64,000 nucleotides of DNA from Gammaproteobacteria bacterium (GCA_018813765.1 JAHJBC010000006.1:248001-312000); one strand, 5' to 3'; numbered from the stretch's first letter, positions 13,830 to 51,241 are shown. The notes: generated by a model from the letters alone, not told the origin. Translations and numbers: made by a program.

Positions 13830-14094
13830 AAACCCGCTTGTTAAAGCCTTCCTGTATGTAACTTTCTGTAGTTGCATCGAAATCAGCGGTTCCGATTCGA
13901 AGAATTCGTTCGAATACTCCCCCAATCACCTCCTGTACTTTAGTGCACCCGTACTTCAGTACGATGTATCTCTCCGTTGATGTAGCTATATTGCATCCGC
14001 TTGCATGTTCCCGCATTTTTGAAACTATGCCTTGTTGTTTTGGACTGGTTCGATGCGGGTTATCTTCAGATTGACCACCCGGAAAGGGATGAAT

Positions 14095-14715
14095 ATGAAA
14101 CGGATTCTGCTCGGCTTGTTTATTTTCACGTCGCTAGGTATGGCTAATACGGGAGCGCTTGCGGCCGGAACGCTCGTAATTGACAACCCTTCGGCGATTT
14201 CCTTTTCCTATTATGACGGGCAGCCGCAAACAGTTACTGGAACACTGAGCCAAGGATTCTGGGGTTCGATATTTGCAACCGGATCTGGAATATTCACCGC
14301 GACCTATCTGGGTAATGAGAGTGGCTATGTGGACAAGTTTTCTCTTGGCTTCGGAGATGGCAGGCTTTTGGAATCAAATGTAGTGGGGACGTCAATATCC
14401 ATGGGTATCGATGCTGGAACAGTGGATTTTAGCTTTTCAGATACCGAGGGATTGGGGCATAAATTCAGGAACGGAGATGCACAATTTGACGCTTTTGGTT
14501 TTGCCATCATGGCAGGTCAAACTAACCAGTATGGCTCATTCGACTATATTCTTGGTTTTAACGACCTCTATGCTGGCGATACGGATTACGACGACTTTGT
14601 GGTCGGCATCAATTTCGCGCCGGTTCCCGAGCCCCAGACATACGCAATGATACTCGCCGGATTGGGCTTGCTTGGCGTGAGCTTCCGCCGCCGCAAGAGT
14701 GGCATGTTCGATTGA
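14095..14715 (+). CDS. PEP-CTERM sorting domain-containing protein
   Basis: Signal peptide; C-terminus FAPVPEPQTYAMILAGLGLLGVSFRRRKSGMFD (PEP motif, TM, Arg cluster). Confidence 0.92.
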   Translation: MKRILLGLFIFTSLGMANTGALAAGTLVIDNPSAISFSYYDGQPQTVTGTLSQGFWGSIFATGSGIFTATYLGNESGYVDKFSLGFGDGRLLESNVVGTSISMGIDAGTVDFSFSDTEGLGHKFRNGDAQFDAFGFAIMAGQTNQYGSFDYILGFNDLYAGDTDYDDFVVGINFAPVPEPQTYAMILAGLGLLGVSFRRRKSGMFD

Positions 14716-17567: not shown

Positions 17568-18476
17568 ATGAAAAGCGTATCGAAAATGTCCAATGCGACA
17601 GCGGGTTTGAATATTCTGAAAGCCGTCCTGCCGGAATGGTGGCCTGTCCTGCTGGGGCTGCTGGTCATGTACGCTCCGACTTTGCATGATCTGTTCGTTG
17701 GGTTGTGGTCCACCGAGGGGCAGGCGCATGGCCCCATCATCCTCGCGCTTGCCTTGTGGCTGATCTATCGCCAGTGGCCGGGCGAGTTGAACAATAGCGG
17801 GGGAAGGCTTTCGGCGGTCGCGGGCTGGTCTGTGCTGGTTTTGTCATTGTTCAGCTATATTCTCGGGCGGTCCCAGCAGATCATGCTGTTCGAGTTGGGC
17901 TCCCTGATCGGCGTGATTGCTGCGATATTCCTGATCAAGGGTGGCAGCAACCTGATCAGGATCATGTGGTTTCCGCTGTTCTTCCTGCTCTTCATGATTC
18001 CCTTGCCGGGCACGGTCGTGATAACGCTCACCATGCCGATGAAAATGGCGGTCTCCTATGTGACCGAAGTGATCCTGCATTGGGCTGACTATCCGATTGC
18101 ACGTAGCGGAGTCATATTGCAAATCGGGCAATACCAGTTGTTGGTTGCGGATGCCTGCGCCGGACTGCAAACCCTGCTGACTCTGGAATCGTTGGGCCTG
18201 TTCTACCTGAATGTCGTACGGCATACCTCCATATTGCGGAATGTAACGCTGGCCATCCTGATCATCCCGATTTCATTTGCTGCCAACGTGATACGCGTTA
18301 TCACGCTCACCCTCATCACTTACTATTTCGGTGACGAGGCTGGGCAGGGTTTTCTGCATGGGTTTGCCGGCATGGTCTTGTTCCTGAGCGCCTTGATATT
18401 GATCTTGGGCATGGATTCGATGCTGCGGACTGTCGTGAAGATGTGGGCGAACAGATCGCCTCAGGCCGCGAAATGA
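17568..18476 (+). CDS. xrtB: exosortase B (EpsH family)
   Basis: 302 aa polytopic; LVADACAGLQTLLTLESLGLFYL (Cys) and later IPISFAANVIRVI (Arg) and HGFAGM (His) catalytic motifs. Confidence 0.92.
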   Translation: MKSVSKMSNATAGLNILKAVLPEWWPVLLGLLVMYAPTLHDLFVGLWSTEGQAHGPIILALALWLIYRQWPGELNNSGGRLSAVAGWSVLVLSLFSYILGRSQQIMLFELGSLIGVIAAIFLIKGGSNLIRIMWFPLFFLLFMIPLPGTVVITLTMPMKMAVSYVTEVILHWADYPIARSGVILQIGQYQLLVADACAGLQTLLTLESLGLFYLNVVRHTSILRNVTLAILIIPISFAANVIRVITLTLITYYFGDEAGQGFLHGFAGMVLFLSALILILGMDSMLRTVVKMWANRSPQAAK

Positions 18477-20177: not shown

Positions 20178-21336
20178 TTAAAGCATCTGTGAATCTTGCG
20201 TAGATGCATGTGCAGGCTCTCGATGGCGTCTTCGGTACATTTCATTGGGAGGCGCACCCTTTCTCCCACCTGTAATCCTTTGATAAAACCGTGGGGTATG
20301 CAACTTGAGAACACCCCCCAACATCAATAGCAAAAGAATGACGATGATTGGCACACTGAAATACAACGCAAACGCAACTCCCCCCCCCCTGATCGTACAA
20401 CAACTTTCCAGCCACCTTGGCAGCAATGCCAAGCAACGGCTCATGTGCAGCAAAAACAAAAAATGAGAACACTGAAAGCTTCTTGGCATATTCTCCTAAT
20501 ACCCCCTCCCTGAATATCAGGTCAGATGCATACCATATTGCGGCCACTCCAGCCAAAGTAACCAGCTTGCTCAATATCGGGAAAAACTGAACCCCTGAAA
20601 CGAATAGAAATGTCGTTGAAATAGCCAGAACAACATACACAGCAAGCAACCAAAGCTGGTTCACTCGCTGCATTTGCACATCCAATTTGCCTTGTGCAAC
20701 AAGGCAACCCAAGCTAAAAAAGAACCATGATTCATTGCGAATGTTCGCAAGACGCCCCTGATCAATCATCCAGATGACCATAAAACAAATCACTGGAAGC
20801 CATGAAAACCTCCTGATGGCCCACCATATGGCAGGCGCAAATAGAACCATAACGATCAAATCCCTGATAAACCAAAACTGATAGGAAATAGGGAAATTCG
20901 ATATTCCGGTCAATGCATCAAAGTAATCAGTAAACTGATAGTCGACGATCCGTTTTGAAGTCCCCCCGGTCATGCTGGCGAGCCATAGATTTGTTTGAAC
21001 AACAAACTTGAATGCCAGATATGTCAGGTTCCAGATCAGATAGGGGGCCAAGAGGCTTGTCATTCTCGACCGGAGCTTGCCAAGATAGGAATCGAATGTT
21101 GGTGTAAACCTTACAAATAGTAAATACGAGGAAATTACAAAGAACAGCGGAACTACGCTAGACAGAACGACAAGCGAAATGAGATGGATGACAAATTTGT
21201 ATGCAAACAGAGATGATTCAGGACTATCCAATATCACATCAGAATAGTTGGCCCCCATATGGATAAATACAACACCCACAATGAGAGGAAATCTAAGTGC
21301 TTCAATTTGATGAGAAGTCCGTTGATCAATGCTCAT
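20178..21336 (-). pseudogene. acyltransferase 3 family membrane protein, frameshifted (or phase variable) at a G10 tract
   Basis: MSIDQRTSHQIEALRFPLIVGVVFIHMG... reads through LLYDQGGG then goes out of frame; natural continuation VAFALYFSVPIIVILLLLMLGG is in the adjacent frame (20178..20489 ORF). Confidence 0.78.
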
Positions 21337-22792
21337 CTGCAAGGTGGTGCCCCAGTCGTTCCGACAACATGACAACAGTCAGGGTGGGATTGGTTCCACC
21401 TCCCGTCGGAAAAACGCTGCTTCCGGCTACGAAGATATTTTTGAAACCATGTATCCGCAAGTTTTTATCTACGACACCATATTTGGGATCCTCAGACATT
21501 CTGGTCGTGCCCATTTGATGAGCATGCAAACCATACTCACGAATATCTATTGATTCATCAAGAATAAAATCAGCAAGCTGTACTCGCGATAGTCCGATTC
21601 GAGCCATTTCCTTTGCTGCTTCAATTCCCAACGTGCGTATGGTTTTGTTATCTGCGGCATTGATCTTCCAATCAAGCTTGACGCGACGCAAACCGAACAT
21701 ATCTTTCTCTGCCCCAAGGAAAACACGACTATCTGGATTCGGGGTTTGTTCAATTAAGCTGGAAATAATCCCATCTCCTGGACAGTCGAAATCAACAAAA
21801 TTCCTGGATATGTCAGTAAGAGAATCTGATTTACATATACTCTCTCGAATGGTCTGCTTAAGCACCCTTAATCGCCCATAACTGGCGGGTGTTGAGTTGA
21901 TGTCAAAACTCAGGACCGCATTTCCAATTTGCATTTTTCTGATCAAATCCTCACTTGGATTTAGCTGTATTCCACCATGCTGCCAAATCGGTGAGTCGTC
22001 CGAAATGAATCTACCAAAATTAACGTTGAAATGCTCCATGAAGCAGCGACCAACCATATCATTTTGGTTGCCTATGCCAGTATTGACCTGTTTATCGCAA
22101 TTCAGCAACAAGCGGGCATTCTCGATGGAGCCCAAGGCAATTACATATTTCCTTGCTTGGAAAAAAAACTTTTGATTTGAATAATTTCTGACCTCAAATG
22201 AGGTTGCGGCATCATGATTGTCATTCAAACTGATATTTGTCAGATTGGCGTTGATGTAGACATCAATTTTTGAGGATTCTTTAAATTCAGAATAGTACTT
22301 GGTTCCAAAGCGAGTTGGAGGACTGAGCGTGCTCTCTGAAAACCTGAAGTTATTGCCCTTCCATTTTGATTTATGGGATGCCTGGAATGCATCCTTTGAA
22401 ATATCCAGAATGGAACATGCGGCATCAAAATGCTGGAATACGTCTGCTCTCGTTATTGGCCATCCTGGTAAGCCGAAATAGTGCCGTTGCTCAAAATCAA
22501 CCTCATCAAAATAGGCACAACGTCCAGCCCAGTGATTTGACGTGCCGCCAAAAAATCTTAATCTGGCTGTGCGAACCGCATCCCAATATTGCACTCCGAT
22601 GCTTTCGCCGTCATAACAACTTTGAGAAATTTCGGAATACTCCAGATCGCCCCCTTCAAACAAGGCCACTTTTTTGCCTTGCTTTGCCAATACCCTTGCA
22701 ACTGTGATACCTGCCGGGCCTGTCCCGCAAATACATACATCATATTGTTTGCGTACTGAAGAATTCTGGGCTGAATTAAGGTCAATGATCAT
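21326..22792 (-). CDS. GMC family oxidoreductase (FAD)
   Basis: CICGTGPAGITVARVLAKQGKKVALFEGG; HQMGTTRMSEDPKYGVVDKNLRIHGFKNIFVAGSSVFPTGGGTNPTLT. Confidence 0.9.
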   Translation of the reverse strand: MIIDLNSAQNSSVRKQYDVCICGTGPAGITVARVLAKQGKKVALFEGGDLEYSEISQSCYDGESIGVQYWDAVRTARLRFFGGTSNHWAGRCAYFDEVDFEQRHYFGLPGWPITRADVFQHFDAACSILDISKDAFQASHKSKWKGNNFRFSESTLSPPTRFGTKYYSEFKESSKIDVYINANLTNISLNDNHDAATSFEVRNYSNQKFFFQARKYVIALGSIENARLLLNCDKQVNTGIGNQNDMVGRCFMEHFNVNFGRFISDDSPIWQHGGIQLNPSEDLIRKMQIGNAVLSFDINSTPASYGRLRVLKQTIRESICKSDSLTDISRNFVDFDCPGDGIISSLIEQTPNPDSRVFLGAEKDMFGLRRVKLDWKINAADNKTIRTLGIEAAKEMARIGLSRVQLADFILDESIDIREYGLHAHQMGTTRMSEDPKYGVVDKNLRIHGFKNIFVAGSSVFPTGGGTNPTLTVVMLSERLGHHLADEH

Positions 22793-27339: not shown

Positions 27340-28863
27340 TCAGTTTTCTGGTAAGCCTCCCTGAGGATTGATTCGCGAAGTTGCACTATCCCTCTGTACC
27401 ATCTGTGTATAGGCTAAGCCCAGTGCAGCAACGGACCAATAAATGATTGGAATAAATGTAATGCTGCTCACCGTGAAGATAATGACCAGAATGGCAATTA
27501 GTGTGGAAAGCAATACTCGTCCAAGCAAATATTCTTCGCTATGCTTGTCCGGAATATTACGTAGGGTCCGAATAATATTTAACAGTATCAGAACAAAAAA
27601 ACCTACGAACAATCCCAGCCCGACTAAACCCAATTCCAGCGCCACCCGGATATAGCTGTTGACAATATCTATGATGCCTTGCCCCTGTCGCATAGACTGC
27701 ATCTCGGGTGTCTCAAGGAAGTCAACCGAACCGAACCAGGGATTGCGCTCAATCACAATCATCGAATTTGTGATCAGCCTTTCCCGGTAATCGACGTTTT
27801 GTGTTTCTGTAGCGCCAATAAAGGGCAGCAAATTGATAATTTTTTCGCCTCCGGGAAGTATGGATAGCAGTGGCAAGACAATGATCGTTGCCAGAACTAG
27901 ACTTATCAAGCGGCGAATCGCGTAGCGACCTGTCAGGATAAACACAACGACCAGTACGGCCGCTCCTACCCATGGGCCGCGCGACAATGGGGCAATTAAA
28001 CCGATGACGAGCAATGCAGCTCCGATCCGGCGGAAGAGTTTCTGCTGAATGGAACCATGAATGAACAAGTATAGGCCGATTCCCACAACCATCAGGTATC
28101 CCAAAGCAATGGGTTGGCCCGCCGTGGCGAGCGCCCTGAGTATTCCGTCTCTGGCAAGGTAGTTTGTGAAATCTCCTTCTAGTTCCGGGATGCCGGTCCA
28201 GGATGAATAAAGCAACCAGCGTTTGACTGATTCGAAAGCTGCGATTGGTGCCAAAACCATGATTGCCAGTACCAGGCTCAGCAGAGCCTCTCGAAAAGAT
28301 TGCGTATTCTTCAGCGAGCGGCTGATGACGAAATAAGGGAGAAAGACATCAATGAAAAGATAAAATGTTTCTCGCAAAGAATTGGTCAGGCTGGTCTCGC
28401 GCAGGAAGAGCGCCGCTGTGAGCAGGAGATAAGCTGCCAATGCCTTGTCAGGTGCGGTGCGCCCAAATGGGGTGGTGTCTCCCTGTCGTTTAAGGGCAAC
28501 AAATGCGGGAAACAGGATGAACAGTTCCAGCAGCCTGACATGGGAGAGGTTGAATAGCACGTTTGACAAGCCCATCCCGGGAATCGGGAAAGATGTCATC
28601 GGAAGTGCAAGCAGGGTAAAAAAAAATAGCGCCGAAAGATTCGATTCGTGGCGGCGGGCACTGACCAGAAGCGGTATGGCGATAGCCGTGTAAATCCAGA
28701 AGTTTTGCGTTAGAAATGCCGCAAGTGTCAAAGCAAACCATAGGTTTCTTCTACGTGTAAAATTTCCTTCAGTCGAGAGGGAGTTGGCTGATTGATGAGC
28801 AAACGCAAAGAAAGTCGTAGCCAAAACAAGAATGACGATTAGTGCTCGGATATGTTCTGGCAT
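27340..28863 (-). CDS. O-antigen ligase/polymerase-like (Wzy/WaaL) membrane protein
   Basis: 507 aa polytopic; APLSRGPWVGAAVLV. Confidence 0.75.
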   Translation of the reverse strand: MPEHIRALIVILVLATTFFAFAHQSANSLSTEGNFTRRRNLWFALTLAAFLTQNFWIYTAIAIPLLVSARRHESNLSALFFFTLLALPMTSFPIPGMGLSNVLFNLSHVRLLELFILFPAFVALKRQGDTTPFGRTAPDKALAAYLLLTAALFLRETSLTNSLRETFYLFIDVFLPYFVISRSLKNTQSFREALLSLVLAIMVLAPIAAFESVKRWLLYSSWTGIPELEGDFTNYLARDGILRALATAGQPIALGYLMVVGIGLYLFIHGSIQQKLFRRIGAALLVIGLIAPLSRGPWVGAAVLVVVFILTGRYAIRRLISLVLATIIVLPLLSILPGGEKIINLLPFIGATETQNVDYRERLITNSMIVIERNPWFGSVDFLETPEMQSMRQGQGIIDIVNSYIRVALELGLVGLGLFVGFFVLILLNIIRTLRNIPDKHSEEYLLGRVLLSTLIAILVIIFTVSSITFIPIIYWSVAALGLAYTQMVQRDSATSRINPQGGLPEN

Positions 28864-29209: not shown

Positions 29210-30700
29210 ATGAGTAATACACAATACATGTCACGCTCACAGTCAGAAGATAAACCTGCACTGGCAGCAGAGGTGCCGCTTTGTGTCGATCTTGATGGCA
29301 CCCTGATTCTTTCCGATGTGCTGTGGGAGTCGATTATTCAGCTGTGGAGCAAGCCGGCTGCGGCTATTCGCGCTGCATGGGCGCTGCTCCATGGCAAGGC
29401 GGCATTGAAGGGCGTATTGGCGAACGAAGTAGCAATTGATCCTGCCTCTCTGCCGTACCGGGAGGATTTGCTGGCGTTCTTGCGTACAGAAAAGGAGGCC
29501 GGAAGACAATTAATCCTGGTCACTGCTACTCATCGCATGATTGCTGAAAGGGTGGCCGAGCATTTGGGTATTTTTAGCGGCGTAATGGCCACAGAGGAAA
29601 AGCTCAACCTGGGTGGCGAACACAAAAAAGAAGCGCTTGTGGCCGCTTACGGTGTTGGCGGGTTCGACTACATTGGCGATCACCTAAAGGATATGGCCAT
29701 TTTTTCTGTCGCGAGACATTCGTTTCTGGCCGATCCATCCGATAGGCTGAGGAAAATGGCGGACAAGGTTGGCAATGTAGGCAGGGTCTTTTCGCGCAGC
29801 CGAAGCTGGAGCAAGGTCATTCTCAGGACAATGCGAGTTCATCAATATGCCAAGAATGCATTGCTCGGCGTGCCTCTGCTTACTGCACATCTGGTATTGG
29901 ATGCCGGGGCATGGCTGAATCTGATTCTTGCCTTTTTTAGCTTCAGCATGCTGGCGTCAGCAACCTATATTGTTAATGATTTGCATGACTTATCGCTGGA
30001 TCGGAAGCATCAGAAGAAACGATTCAGACCATTAGCCAGCGGCGACATCTCCATCCCGGCTGGAATTGGTTTGGCGTTCATCCTGATATGTGCGAGTTTT
30101 GCCCTTACGCTGGCATTTTTACCCCGCCTTTTTTTTGTTTTCCTGCTGATATATACAGTTCTAACGCTAGCCTATTCTTTTGATCTCAAGCGTCGGCTGA
30201 TCGTGGATGCCTTGGCCTTGGCTATGTTATACACCCTGCGTATCATCGCTGGCGCGGCGGCAATCAGTGTGGTGCTTTCGGAGTGGTTGCTGATGTTCTC
30301 GCTGTTTTTCTTTGTTAGCCTGGCGCTTTTGAAACGGGCTATCGAGCTGGAGGGAATTACTGACGGCAAGCGCATTCCAGGCAGGGGATACGTTCCATCC
30401 GATGCCGACATCATCCGCTCTATTGGTCCATCTTCCGGCTTGCTGGCTGTGTTGGTGTTCGCCCTCTATATCAACAGCCCCGGGGTGACTAAACTTTATA
30501 GCACGCCGCAAATGCTGTGGTTGCTTTGCCCACTGCTCATATACTGGATTACCCGAATCTGGTTTCTGGCCAACCGGGGACAGGTAAATCACGATCCGGT
30601 TGTGTTTGCTCTAATGGATATCCGTAGCTATATTGTCGCGGCGTTTGCGGGCATTATTTTGATGCTCGCCAGTTTCGACCTGTCGAAGAATATTCTATGA
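29210..30700 (+). CDS. HAD-UbiA fusion, DPPR-synthase-like prenyltransferase
   Basis: HAD motif VDLDGTLILSD; UbiA motif VNDLHDLSLDRKHQKKRFRPLASGDIS. Confidence 0.9.
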   Translation: MSNTQYMSRSQSEDKPALAAEVPLCVDLDGTLILSDVLWESIIQLWSKPAAAIRAAWALLHGKAALKGVLANEVAIDPASLPYREDLLAFLRTEKEAGRQLILVTATHRMIAERVAEHLGIFSGVMATEEKLNLGGEHKKEALVAAYGVGGFDYIGDHLKDMAIFSVARHSFLADPSDRLRKMADKVGNVGRVFSRSRSWSKVILRTMRVHQYAKNALLGVPLLTAHLVLDAGAWLNLILAFFSFSMLASATYIVNDLHDLSLDRKHQKKRFRPLASGDISIPAGIGLAFILICASFALTLAFLPRLFFVFLLIYTVLTLAYSFDLKRRLIVDALALAMLYTLRIIAGAAAISVVLSEWLLMFSLFFFVSLALLKRAIELEGITDGKRIPGRGYVPSDADIIRSIGPSSGLLAVLVFALYINSPGVTKLYSTPQMLWLLCPLLIYWITRIWFLANRGQVNHDPVVFALMDIRSYIVAAFAGIILMLASFDLSKNIL

Positions 30701-31059
30701 CTCATTGGCTGTTATTACTGCTGACTGTCATTCTGACTGCAGTGGCGAATCTTCTTCTCAAATATGCAGCAGTCAACCGAGATGAATTGGCAGGGGCAAA
30801 AGGGATTGTTGACAGTCTCTGGGAGCTTTTCACCACACCATCGCTAATTCTGGGGATATTTTGTCTGGGCGTGGCGATGGTCGCATATGCAATAGCGTTG
30901 CGCTATATCAATCTGAGCGTGGCCTATCCCGTCATGACTACATCAGTGGTGGTTCTGGTGGCTATATTTTCGGCGATATATTTTGGAGAGCCGTTCACAC
31001 TGGTAAAAGTGGCCGGGACCGTTATGGTGATCTCTGGCGTTATTTTGTTATCGCAGTAA
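30697..31059 (+). CDS. SMR/EamA-like small membrane transporter (possible lipid-sugar flippase)
   Basis: 120 aa, 4 TM, GEPFTLVKVAGTVMVISGVILLS; ATGA overlap with upstream gene. Confidence 0.82.
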   Translation: MTHWLLLLLTVILTAVANLLLKYAAVNRDELAGAKGIVDSLWELFTTPSLILGIFCLGVAMVAYAIALRYINLSVAYPVMTTSVVVLVAIFSAIYFGEPFTLVKVAGTVMVISGVILLSQ

Positions 31060-31069
31060 CGGGAAGCCC

Positions 31070-32377
31070 ATGCACGCATTCAACGCTTTCCTGCCTTTTC
31101 GGCATTCATTGCAGCGCATTACGGAAGGTTTCAGGGATCCGGCATGGTTGCATAAAGCCGGGTGGTGGGCATTGATAATCGCTCTTCTCTTGCGCGTAGG
31201 TTGGGGCATATCTGTGCCGGTTATTCCGGTTTCTGACAGCAATGCCTACGATGTGTTTGCTCAGAATATCGCTGCAGGTCAGGGTTTCAGCTGGAAGTCA
31301 GGGGAGTTGACGGCATATTGGGCCGTAGGCACTCCTGCAGTATATGCGTTGATATACAGCATATTTGGACATACCTATGTACCCATAGTCGTATTGAACA
31401 TTATTGTGGGACTGGGCACTGTAGCGTTGGCCATGTCCTTGGCACGACGTTGGCTGGGGCCGGTTCCCGCAGTGCTGACCGGCTGGATTCTCGCAATTTG
31501 GCCGCTAATGATTCAATTCACAACGATCCTGGCCAGCGAGATGCTGTTCAATTTTTGTGTTTTGGCAGCGTTCTGGGTGGCGACCATGCCTGGGTGGAAG
31601 TGGCTTCCAAGGGCAGTGGCCGCAGGCGTTATATTGGCTGCTGCTGTGTATATACGGCCAATCGCCCTTTTGCTGGCGCCAGTGATCTATTTTCAGGAGG
31701 CAGTGATTCAGCGACGGTTGATCAGGGCTGGCGCTGCTTGCGCAGTCTCTTGTGTGGTCATGATTGCTTTGATCCTGCCGTGGTCATTACGCAACCTGGA
31801 AGTGTTTGACCGCTTCGTGCTTGTGTCCACGAATGCAGGCACAAATTTCTGGATGGGCAACAATCCAGAGACTACGGGGAGTTATATGCCTGAGCCTGAA
31901 ACGGGCATCGTCAACGAGGCTGAGCGTGACATCTATTTAAAACATAAAGCGTGGGAATACATCGGTCAGGAGCCACTGGCATTTGTGTCCAGGACATTGA
32001 AAAAAGCTGTTTTGCTCCATGACCGGGAATCCATTGGTGTCGTCTGGAATGAAAAAGGCCTGGAACAGAGTTTTGGGCGCTTAGTTCTGCTTCCTCTTAA
32101 GCTCATCAGTAACATCTATTGGTGGCTGATGCTGGCTTGCGCCGGCTACGCTCTGATATTGTTGCTGCGACAACGAACCTGGCTGGAGTTGCTGACCTTG
32201 CCTCCGTTGATTGTATGGGCTTATTACGCTGCGGTGCATAGCATTACTGTGGTCGGAGATCGGTATCACATTCCTTCTGATCCGTTTATCGCAATGCTGG
32301 GGGCTTACGCGATTTTTATTGCGGCGGGAAGAATGGTGGCCGTCGGCAAGGATGAATCGACGCCAAACAGAAATTGA
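31070..32377 (+). CDS. GT39/ArnT-like GT-C glycosyltransferase
   Basis: 435 aa polytopic; DSNAYDVFAQNIAAGQGFSW; periplasmic-loop layout. Confidence 0.8.
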   Translation: MHAFNAFLPFRHSLQRITEGFRDPAWLHKAGWWALIIALLLRVGWGISVPVIPVSDSNAYDVFAQNIAAGQGFSWKSGELTAYWAVGTPAVYALIYSIFGHTYVPIVVLNIIVGLGTVALAMSLARRWLGPVPAVLTGWILAIWPLMIQFTTILASEMLFNFCVLAAFWVATMPGWKWLPRAVAAGVILAAAVYIRPIALLLAPVIYFQEAVIQRRLIRAGAACAVSCVVMIALILPWSLRNLEVFDRFVLVSTNAGTNFWMGNNPETTGSYMPEPETGIVNEAERDIYLKHKAWEYIGQEPLAFVSRTLKKAVLLHDRESIGVVWNEKGLEQSFGRLVLLPLKLISNIYWWLMLACAGYALILLLRQRTWLELLTLPPLIVWAYYAAVHSITVVGDRYHIPSDPFIAMLGAYAIFIAAGRMVAVGKDESTPNRN

Positions 32378-32621: not shown

Positions 32622-33956
32622 ATGCCAATGTCATCAAATACCACGTCCACTCTCAGGCAGCGCGTTTTTAAATCCGGGTCGTGGACCATGCTAGGGTACG
32701 CATTGAATCAAGCTTTGCGTTTCGGAGGCAACCTCATTCTTACGCGCTTATTGTTTCCTGAGGCATTTGGAATGATGGCGATCATTCAGGCCGTGGCTTT
32801 CGGGGCGCACATGCTTACCGATGTCGGAGTGGGACCTTCAATTGTCCAGAATGAGCGCGGAAACAATCCGGTATTCTTGAATACGGTCTGGACAGTCCAA
32901 ATCGTTCGAAGTGTCCTAGTGTGGGTTGGATTATGTGCTTTGGGGTGGCCGCTGGCAGAATTCTATGGTGAGCCCGACTTCGTCAGGATGTTTCCGGTTG
33001 TCGGGTTGGCTGCAATAATCGTAGGCTTTAATTCCACCAAATTGTATACGGCGCAAAGAAATCTTGAGGCAGTGCGAGTGACTCAAATTGAGATTGGCTC
33101 ATATGCGCTTGGATTGTTTTTCACAATATTCCTTGCATGGCTGATGCAATCGGTCTGGGCTCTAGTGTGGGGAGGCGTGTTTTCCGCTGGCCTGAAGATG
33201 GTTGCCAGTCACATTGCGCTTCATGGCATAAAGAATGGATTCGCATGGGACCGGGATACGATCAGCCACATGCGGGGGTTCGGGCGCTGGATACTGCTAA
33301 GTTCGTCACTTACCTTTTTGTCGATAGAAGGCGCGCGCCTACTGATCGGCGCACTGCTTGATATGCGCCAACTGGCTTTGTTTACATTGGCAAGTACGCT
33401 AAGCATGATGTTCTGGCAAGCCATGCAGCAACTTGCCGGTAGTGTGTTTTTCCCAGCCTATTCGGAAGTTAATCGCACCAACCCCAGGAATCTCAAATCG
33501 GTGCTGTTTAAGGCACGGTTGACACTTATCCTGCCCAGTTGGAGCTTGGCAGTCGCATTTACATTTTTTGGATCGCAAATCATGGAGATACTCTACGATG
33601 TGCGATATCACCAATCGGGCATTATGCTTGAGCAGCTTGCAGCCGGTTCGCTCGTGGCTTGTGTATGGGGATCATATTCGGGTGTATTGCTGGCCCTTGC
33701 CAAGGTCGCTCCCATGACGGCGTTGACCGCAATCCAGATCGTATGTCAGTTTGCTATGATGTTCATTGGCTACCAGTATGGAGGAAGTGCTGGTTTGGTT
33801 ATGGGGGTGGCTGCGGCAAACTGGATTGTCTATCCCGCATACGCGTTCGTGATGCACCAGAATGGATTGTGGCAACCCAAGCTGGATCTGATCGTTATTG
33901 CAGCATCGGTTCTGATTGTGGTGTTGGCATGGCCAAGTTTGAATGCTGTTGGCTAA
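32622..33956 (+). CDS. oligosaccharide flippase (Wzx family)
   Basis: MSSNTTSTLRQRVFKSGSWTMLGYALNQALRFGGNLILTRLLFPEAFGMMAIIQA. Confidence 0.9.
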   Translation: MPMSSNTTSTLRQRVFKSGSWTMLGYALNQALRFGGNLILTRLLFPEAFGMMAIIQAVAFGAHMLTDVGVGPSIVQNERGNNPVFLNTVWTVQIVRSVLVWVGLCALGWPLAEFYGEPDFVRMFPVVGLAAIIVGFNSTKLYTAQRNLEAVRVTQIEIGSYALGLFFTIFLAWLMQSVWALVWGGVFSAGLKMVASHIALHGIKNGFAWDRDTISHMRGFGRWILLSSSLTFLSIEGARLLIGALLDMRQLALFTLASTLSMMFWQAMQQLAGSVFFPAYSEVNRTNPRNLKSVLFKARLTLILPSWSLAVAFTFFGSQIMEILYDVRYHQSGIMLEQLAAGSLVACVWGSYSGVLLALAKVAPMTALTAIQIVCQFAMMFIGYQYGGSAGLVMGVAAANWIVYPAYAFVMHQNGLWQPKLDLIVIAASVLIVVLAWPSLNAVG

Positions 33957-36481: not shown

Positions 36482-36607
36482 GTGGTCAAATTCTGGAATT
36501 CTTTGCCGTCAATTGAATAATTCAGCGTTTCCCCAAGCTGAAATATCTGTAGAGTTGGATTGGGAGAAATTACTGGCCGTCACAGTAATCAGAAGAAGGT
36601 AATAATA

Positions 36608-37525
36608 ATGAGGGTCGGTGTCGTCGAGACTTTAGGTCATGTCCATCGCTTGGGTAGAGCGATGCATCCTTCTATTACCTTGAACAGTTTCAAGCATCAG
36701 GTCATTTTGATCTTGTTGACCCTGAAATCCCTTCCGGAAATTCGGAAGTGGTATGAGAATTCTGACAACCCATTGCTTGCCCGGGCATTGAAGCGTTTTC
36801 CGCTGATAAGCGGAGCGATCTACTGGCCTTATATAAATCACGCCTGGTCGATGAAACAGCGTCTGGCAACTATCGATCAGCATTACTACATGCTTGGCGG
36901 ACCTGCGGCGATCATCGCTCACGCTACCTTTGAGAAGGTGGAACTGGCACGATTGGACGATAGTTATGCCGGGCTGCATCTGGCGCTGGACAAAGCCGAG
37001 TGGTTTCTGCGTGAGGGTGAGATAGTCCTCAATCTGTTCGTCAATGACCAGCGTATCTATTCCATCGCGTTCACTCTTGGCATAGAAGCTGGCCAACCTT
37101 TGATTTTTGTGGGCGCACTGCAAGGGGTAAAATCTGAGGCCGCGCGGGGGCTATATCGCGATATTACCCACGCCCTTCACGGCATGAGGCCGCGTGACTT
37201 TCTGATGGGTGCACTCAAGCTGACGTGCGCTGAGCTTGATATTCGCAGAATATGGGCAGTTTCCGGCGAGTACCGCCAGCATAACAGCAGTTATTTCGGT
37301 GATTCACATAAGGAGAAGGTGTTAGTTGCTTACGACGAGGTGTGGCTTGAACAAGGCGGATTGGAGCTCGACAACGGCTTTTTCGAAATTCCCACCATCA
37401 TCAGCCGCAAAGACACGGAAGAGATCCCCGCTCGCAAACGTGCCACCTACAAGCGAAGATTCCAGATGCTGGACAAACTGGCTCTGGACATCAAGACCAC
37501 TTTAGCTCAGCATGCGGCGCTGTAA
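36608..37525 (+). CDS. VirK/YbjX (DUF535) family protein
   Basis: IIAHATFEKVELARLDDSYAGLHLALD; FVGALQGVKSEAARGLYRDITHALHGMRPRDFLMGAL. Confidence 0.8.
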   Translation: MRVGVVETLGHVHRLGRAMHPSITLNSFKHQVILILLTLKSLPEIRKWYENSDNPLLARALKRFPLISGAIYWPYINHAWSMKQRLATIDQHYYMLGGPAAIIAHATFEKVELARLDDSYAGLHLALDKAEWFLREGEIVLNLFVNDQRIYSIAFTLGIEAGQPLIFVGALQGVKSEAARGLYRDITHALHGMRPRDFLMGALKLTCAELDIRRIWAVSGEYRQHNSSYFGDSHKEKVLVAYDEVWLEQGGLELDNGFFEIPTIISRKDTEEIPARKRATYKRRFQMLDKLALDIKTTLAQHAAL

Positions 37526-50236: not shown

Positions 50237-51241
50237 ATGATTCTAGTTACCGGAGGAACGGGCTATATTGGCTCGCATACTGTTGTCGAATTGATGCAGG
50301 CCGGATTTGAGGTGTTGGTCCTTGATAATTTCTGCAACAGCAAGGCCTCGGTACTTGACCGTATCGAACGCATCGTTGGGCGTCGCCCGCACTTTGTCGA
50401 AGCAGATGTGCGTAACCGGGATGCAATGCGTGCATTGTTTGCAGACTATCATTTCAATGCCGTGATTCACTTCGCCGGACTGAAGGCAGTGGGTGAGTCG
50501 GTGGAGCAGCCTTTGCGCTATTACGATAACAACATATCCGGTAGCCTGGTCTTGTTCGAAACCATGGCTGAGGCTGGCGTGAAAACGCTGGTATTTTCAT
50601 CCTCGGCTACGGTGTATGGCGATCCTCACACGGTACCTATCCGTGAGGATTTCCCGCTTTCGGCAACCAATCCGTACGGGCGCTCCAAATTGATCGTAGA
50701 GGAAATGTTGAGGGATGTTGCGCATGCGGATGCTTCTTGGAGCATAGCGTTGCTGCGATATTTCAATCCAGTGGGCGCTCATGAATCTGGCTTGATCGGA
50801 GAAGATCCCCATGGGATACCCAATAACTTGATGCCTTACATTACGAAAGTGGCGGTGGGAGCGCTGCCCGAACTGTCTGTTTTTGGTGGTGATTATCCAA
50901 CCCATGATGGAACAGGAGTGCGCGATTACATTCATGTGGTGGATCTGGCACGCGGGCATCTGGCGGCTCTAAATGCATTGGCCCAATCTTCAGGGGTGAT
51001 GACAACCAACCTTGGGACCGGGAAGGGTTACAGCGTTCTTGACATGATCAAGGCATTCGAAGCGGCGAGCGGGAATAAAGTCCCCTATCGAATTGTCGGT
51101 CGTCGACCTGGCGACATTGCTGCCTGCTATGCCGACCCCTCTTTTGCAAAGGCAGTGCTGGGTTGGCAAGCGCAATATGGAATCGATGAAATGTGTCGCG
51201 ATGCATGGCGGTGGCAATCCATGTCGTTTGCAACAACTTGA
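50237..51241 (+). CDS. galE: UDP-glucose 4-epimerase
   Basis: [53 protein letters not shown]. Confidence 0.94.

Follow-up and report, generated by a model that had tools for sequence, protein, structure and literature searches.

A predicted ribofuranosylation module between wzy and wzx in an exosortase-B exopolysaccharide locus of a gammaproteobacterium

The closest described systems are those of C. youngae O1 and O2, in which the HAD-UbiA fusion ORF15 makes farnesyl-P-ribose from PRPP and farnesyl-P, its HAD part being the phosphatase that removes the 5-phosphate (Kelly et al. 2024, PMC11127046). Mutagenesis of ORF15 has shown that D18, N247, D248, D251 and D255 matter, and the GT-C enzyme ORF12 (GT136), whose carbohydrate-binding module (residues 503-652) was dispensable under the conditions tested, transfers the sugar from polyprenyl-P-ribofuranose (PMC11127046). 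A four-helix protein similar to EmrE and ArnE, ORF14, was proposed as the flippase and called a MATE protein, in C. youngae O2 one GalE-like SDR is responsible for the xylofuranose, and candidate systems were reported across many species (PMC11127046).

We analysed a stretch of 64,000 nucleotides from a Gammaproteobacteria bacterium (GCA_018813765.1, JAHJBC010000006.1:248001-312000; the window), which carries an exopolysaccharide locus with genes for glycosyltransferases, Wza, Wzz, a kinase, Wzx, Wzy and the exosortase XrtB. Three genes of this locus (Table 1) had been read in a preliminary description as an ArnEFT-like module for the synthesis, flipping and transfer of a lipid-linked pentose. 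The ORF coordinates confirmed that they lie on one strand and overlap or abut, with a 4-bp ATGA overlap between the HAD-UbiA and SMR ORFs and a gap of 10 bp between the SMR and GT-C ORFs, and the motifs VDLDGTLILSD and NDLHDLSLDRKHQKKRFRPLASGD were both found as quoted there. A promoter scan gave nothing above chance. The proposal of such a module is supported by the sequence, fold and neighbourhood evidence, which fits the C. youngae O1 route (PMC11127046), and we consider it likely that the three genes form an extracytoplasmic ribofuranosylation module of the Kelly et al. 2024 type that acts on the exosortase-B exopolysaccharide. In the predicted pathway, the UbiA domain would move 5-phosphoribose from PRPP onto polyprenyl phosphate, probably the undecaprenyl form, and the HAD fused to it would remove the 5-phosphate to give polyprenyl-P-ribofuranose, as shown for ORF15 and suggested here by the conserved residues. 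The ArnF-like SMR would then flip this lipid, a step whose flippase is a proposal in the prototype as well, and the GT-C would put ribofuranose as a side chain onto the exopolysaccharide, after or during Wzx/Wzy assembly, the acceptor being suggested by the location of the genes.

The pathway chemistry is already published and is left unchanged by the window module, which is not a new kind of system. EmrE and ArnE are SMR proteins by the usual classification, so ORF14, with its four helices and its similarity to both, has the same anatomy as the window SMR. In common with C. youngae O1/O2 (ORF15, ORF14 and ORF12; PMC11127046), the window module has the HAD(PRP)-UbiA(PPPRS) fusion, its catalytic residues unchanged, a four-helix ArnE/EmrE-like protein as predicted flippase and a GT-C, and like that of O1 it contains no epimerase. 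The C. youngae genes belong to an ABC-transporter O-antigen locus, whereas those of the window lie in a Wzx/Wzy exosortase-B exopolysaccharide locus; moreover, ORF12 has a C-terminal carbohydrate-binding module, whereas the window GT-C is an all-helical PMT_2 protein without one.

Table 1. Module genes, functional motifs and neighbouring genes (positions in the window), and GT-C relatives in other stretches (last row)
Feature	Position	Strand	Basis or remark
HAD-UbiA fusion, predicted polyprenyl-phosphate phosphoribosyltransferase with fused 5'-phosphatase (PRP-PPPRS)	29210..30700	+	496 aa; PRK08238, 8j8j profile match, ORF15-equivalent residues
HAD (predicted phosphoribose phosphatase) domain, aa 27-163	29288..29698	+	Pfam PF12710; nucleophile D27 = ORF15 D18, invariant in alignment
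First Asp-rich motif, N256-D257-x-x-D260-x-x-x-D264	29975..30001	+	Invariant in alignment; = ORF15 N247/D248/D251/D255
K375-R376-x-x-E379, where aromatic UbiA enzymes have their second Asp-rich motif	30332..30346	+	R376/E379 = ORF15 R366/E369; alignments with DPPRS and the genome's own UbiA
SMR/ArnF-like four-helix protein, predicted polyprenyl-P-pentose flippase	30697..31059	+	120 aa; Pfam EamA and Multi_Drug_Res
GT-C glycosyltransferase (PMT_2 type), predicted periplasmic pentofuranosyltransferase	31070..32377	+	435 aa; PMT_2, AlphaFold2, Foldseek
O-antigen ligase/Wzy_C-type polymerase, left border of insertion site	27340..28863	-	Pfam Wzy_C 47.8 bits; next to wzx, with no triad between them, in genomes of the same genus
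Wzx-type flippase, right border of insertion site	32622..33956	+	Pfam Polysacc_synt_3 161.6 bits; synteny
Exosortase B (XrtB)	17568..18476	+	TIGR03113 401.3 bits, cut-off 275
GT-C relatives beside GT2	L098 13465-14902, L099 2291-4465 (both with GtrA); L100 10565-11623 (GT2 only)		Stretches without HAD-UbiA

Mycobacterial arabinosylation (DPPR synthase, DprE1-DprE2, Emb-Aft) relies on the same UbiA-type phosphoribosyl transfer to polyprenyl-P and on the same flippase and GT-C logic, but its phosphatase is a separate, unrelated enzyme, whereas the window synthase carries a fused HAD and DprE1 is missing. The D-arabinofuranosylation of pilin in the Gram-negative Pseudomonas PA7/Pa5196 (ubiA, TfpW) combines the same UbiA-type donor synthase with a GT-C but differs in its sugar, arabinose, and in its acceptor (PMC12369383); unlike the window synthase, that of P. 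aeruginosa has no fused HAD (PMC11127046). Gtr-type O-antigen glucosylation (GtrA-GtrB-Gtr) is built from the same three components of donor synthase, flippase and GT-C, with a GT2 donor enzyme and GtrA where the window has a UbiA-type PRPP enzyme and an SMR, and genes of these Gtr types adjoin relatives of the window GT-C. ArnC/ArnE-ArnF/ArnT shares with the module an SMR-type flippase related to ArnF and the ArnT-like GT-C fold, but has an unrelated donor enzyme, and aminoarabinose genes are missing from the window module.

The window synthase matched Pfam HAD (41.6 bits), Pfam UbiA (72.2 bits) and the NCBIfam model PRK08238 (590.7 bits, cut-off 351). In line with the likeness to DPPR synthase claimed earlier, its UbiA part belongs with the phosphoribosyltransferases, scoring 141.7 bits against the decaprenyl-phosphate phosphoribosyltransferase model (below the cut-off of 234) versus 34 bits against the 4-hydroxybenzoate octaprenyltransferase model TIGR01474 (below the equivalog cut-off of 275). 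Among solved structures, a profile of 12 HAD-UbiA relatives matched M. tuberculosis DPPRS (8j8j) best, with an E-value of 5e-46, compared with 0.0024 for a solved 4-hydroxybenzoate octaprenyltransferase. The catalytic positions of ORF15 are all kept in the window protein (the equivalents of the PPPRS N/D/D/D and of PRP D18), as are R376 and E379 in the HAD-UbiA alignment, and the conservation of D27 is consistent with the suggestion that the fused HAD acts as the 5-phosphate phosphatase, as in the ORF15 route. Membership of the UbiA superfamily and an NDxxDxxxD motif held in common with aromatic prenyltransferases would also accord with a UbiA domain that serves as an aromatic or other prenyltransferase, the three genes then not being one pathway. 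We regard this as extremely unlikely given the two family scores, the repeated co-occurrence of HAD-UbiA with SMR and GT-C or with DprE1/DprE2, and the absence of a second Asp-rich motif from the window UbiA part when aligned with the genome's own aromatic UbiA, which is encoded elsewhere, scores 342.4 bits against TIGR01474 and has that motif; an aromatic function is rejected on the family scores, the solved-structure matches and the missing motif. The SMR gene encodes a 120-aa protein predicted to be a dedicated four-helix ArnE/EmrE-like flippase. Its best NCBIfam match was ArnF (49.1 bits, below the cut-off of 99), above EmrE, and its only matches among solved structures were EmrE and other drug SMRs. 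Drug-exporting SMRs require an acidic residue in helix 1 (EmrE E14). No acidic residue was found in helix 1 of the 12 aligned SMR neighbours of HAD-UbiA (the window protein and 11 others), in which A17, K22 and an S-x-AYP motif are invariant. A role of the SMR in drug export, or as ArnF in the aminoarabinose modification of lipid A, with its position here being accidental, would suit its SMR/EamA family and its structural matches but is very improbable in view of the ArnF score, the composition of helix 1 and the recurring adjacency to HAD-UbiA. Moreover, an arn-like cluster (aminotransferase, GT2 and formyltransferase, gene names being read from sequence) was observed away from the window, on contig C8 of the same genome (254000-264000), and its own ArnF-like SMR gene scored 65.7 bits, more than the window SMR, making it unlikely that the latter is the ArnF of the genome's aminoarabinose pathway.

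The third protein had been labelled GT39, of which the GT-C part held, GT39 being a loose term for a PMT_2-type protein with a weak match (29.2 bits, cut-off 26.1). Its identity to its relatives is 22-27%, and phmmer against the PDB returned nothing useful. An AlphaFold2 model built from an 8-row alignment was all-helical, with a pLDDT of 80 and a pTM of 0.84 (pLDDT 46 from the single sequence). Foldseek placed AglB, ArnT, Pmt4 and PglB at E-values of 5e-5 to 8e-4, and the ten matches at or below an E-value of 0.001 were all GT-C enzymes or GT-C-containing complexes (AglB, ArnT, OST, Pmt4, PglB), indicating that a GT-C lies beside the synthase. We are confident in this assignment as far as the modelled fold is concerned; because TM-scores were about 0.5 or below, the predicted fold is fixed but not the substrate. 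In the alignment D56 and Y60 are invariant and R398-Y399 almost so, and these candidate catalytic residues recall D31/Y35 and R349/Y350 of ORF12. A C-terminal beta-rich carbohydrate-binding module is absent from the 435-aa model; by analogy with ORF12, where it was dispensable, the presence of this module may vary. Relatives of the window GT-C without HAD-UbiA nearby were found beside GT2 in three genomes, in two of them with GtrA as well, so that this type of GT-C is retained with a different donor machinery. Because of this adjacency to GT2 or GtrA genes, the class appears to work with polyprenyl-P-sugars generally; compared with ORF12 by its published description, it would be a class not shown before with a ribofuranose donor.

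HAD-UbiA is patchily distributed, being found in 16 of 150 relatives, 41 of 398 genomes of the order and 52 of 369 genomes of the class, the last count taking in unfused forms at a laxer E-value; within the genus as sampled, the window's own genome gave the only match. A neighbourhood search showed that the triad is conserved, with HAD-UbiA, SMR and GT-C in this order on one strand in 12 loci of 7 genera, and the grouping of the three genes is therefore not due to chance. Home-built profiles sorted the GT-Cs in the triad slot into four groups, and in two of these groups there is no Pfam match at all. Many other HAD-UbiA loci, including those on plasmids of Paracoccus, Burkholderia stagnalis and Rhizobium etli, contain DprE1- and DprE2-like genes, some with GtrA and usually without SMR. 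Among the 81 HAD-UbiA loci that no contig end truncates, home-built profiles detected SMR together with DprE1 in 2, SMR only in 18, DprE1 only in 36 and neither in 25, an avoidance (Fisher 1.8e-4; 0.003 with one genus thinned) that is based on counts not independent of phylogeny. GtrA accompanies DprE1 (14/15). On the HAD-UbiA tree, 11 changes are required to account for the SMR label, and supported branches force no fewer than 5 of them, the pairing thus extending across several lineages; the DprE1 label is clustered. The window protein falls outside the main SMR-associated clade, which argues for an independent association in which the SMR would be a partner by prediction and not by inheritance. 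The nearest relatives of the window HAD-UbiA (three loci of family f83, one of them, L116, with 46% identity) stand alone, with no SMR, GT-C or DprE nearby. In one genome the HAD-UbiA gene is interrupted by an in-frame TAA (L065, 8537-9994), and in some genomes of the class (G705, G590) HAD and UbiA were separate matches. In viral collections, an IMG/VR contig (L060) matched the HAD half only and the phage record MT837543.1 (5261-5743) matched a UbiA fragment only.

In two genomes of the same genus (G003 and G013) homologous wzy and wzx are adjacent, 0.24-0.38 kb apart, and the triad is missing, and in two others (G005 and G030) different genes occupy the space between them. The triad is therefore a variable cassette at the wzy-wzx site, a pattern of side-chain modification. 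Of the two acceptors put forward earlier, the exopolysaccharide is thus favoured by the position of the module at this variable site and a PEP-CTERM protein is less likely; judged from its location, the module most likely serves to add side chains to the exopolysaccharide. The same machinery could act on a protein (PEP-CTERM or pilin-type) or on LPS, given that the locus contains an exosortase and a PEP-CTERM protein (14032-14715, sorting signal 14620-14694, 3 kb upstream of the exosortase), that pilin is arabinofuranosylated by a related donor route in Pseudomonas PA7/Pa5196 (PMC12369383) and that PMT-type and oligosaccharyltransferase folds act on proteins. We consider this unlikely, since the position of the triad between wzy and wzx, together with its absence from that site in same-genus genomes, follows the pattern of a variable polysaccharide decoration and just 6 PEP-CTERM matches were found in the genome, one of them in the exopolysaccharide locus. 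As to the sugar that would decorate the exopolysaccharide, ribose or arabinose had been suggested; the missing DprE1 favours ribose (or xylose) over arabinose. No DprE1 was detected in the 99.76%-complete genome (best match 36 bits, cut-off 500, with 319 and 401 bits for two DprE1-like partners of other HAD-UbiA loci), so ribofuranose is the default prediction and arabinose via DprE1/DprE2 is ruled out as first choice. Xylofuranose made by a GalE-like epimerase is possible because the C. youngae O2 epimerase resembles GalE, and the window encodes a GalE at 50237-51241, 18 kb downstream of the module. More broadly, the frequent position of HAD-UbiA beside DprE1/DprE2 homologues, also on the plasmids named above, and the GalE gene would fit a donor epimerised to arabino- or xylofuranose by enzymes encoded outside the module. 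We judge such epimerisation to be distinctly improbable, as the genome has no DprE1 and the GalE gene is distant; at 455.8 bits this GalE clears the equivalog threshold for UDP-glucose 4-epimerase (262.3), and hexose metabolism accounts for it.

New here are the placement in an exosortase locus, an apparently different class of GT-C and the rule by which SMR and DprE1 are sorted. We tentatively suggest, at somewhat less than an even chance, that the PMT_2-type GT-C is a ribofuranosyltransferase outside GT136 that would add alpha-ribofuranose side chains to exosortase-B-associated exopolysaccharide, in a modular scheme where HAD-UbiA works with SMR for ribose and with DprE1/DprE2 (often plus GtrA) for arabinose and where GT-Cs are freely exchanged, even with hexose (GT2/GtrA) systems. 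This would widen the known range of the pentofuranose side-chain pathway to exopolysaccharide loci of the exosortase type and to GT-Cs of a class untied to it before. The added sugar could be predicted from the genome, according to whether SMR is present in the absence of DprE1 or whether DprE1/DprE2 are present, often together with GtrA. Several neighbours of the exosortase match XrtA-system models, yet the exosortase itself is XrtB, not XrtA. The exopolysaccharide locus also contains, on the minus strand, an acyltransferase-3 gene overlapping a gene for a GMC oxidoreductase with weak pyranose-oxidase similarity (20242-22792), a GMC-like gene being likewise present in a homologous locus (L156), and a DUF535 protein (36560-37525, 201 bits) that is conserved among same-genus loci.
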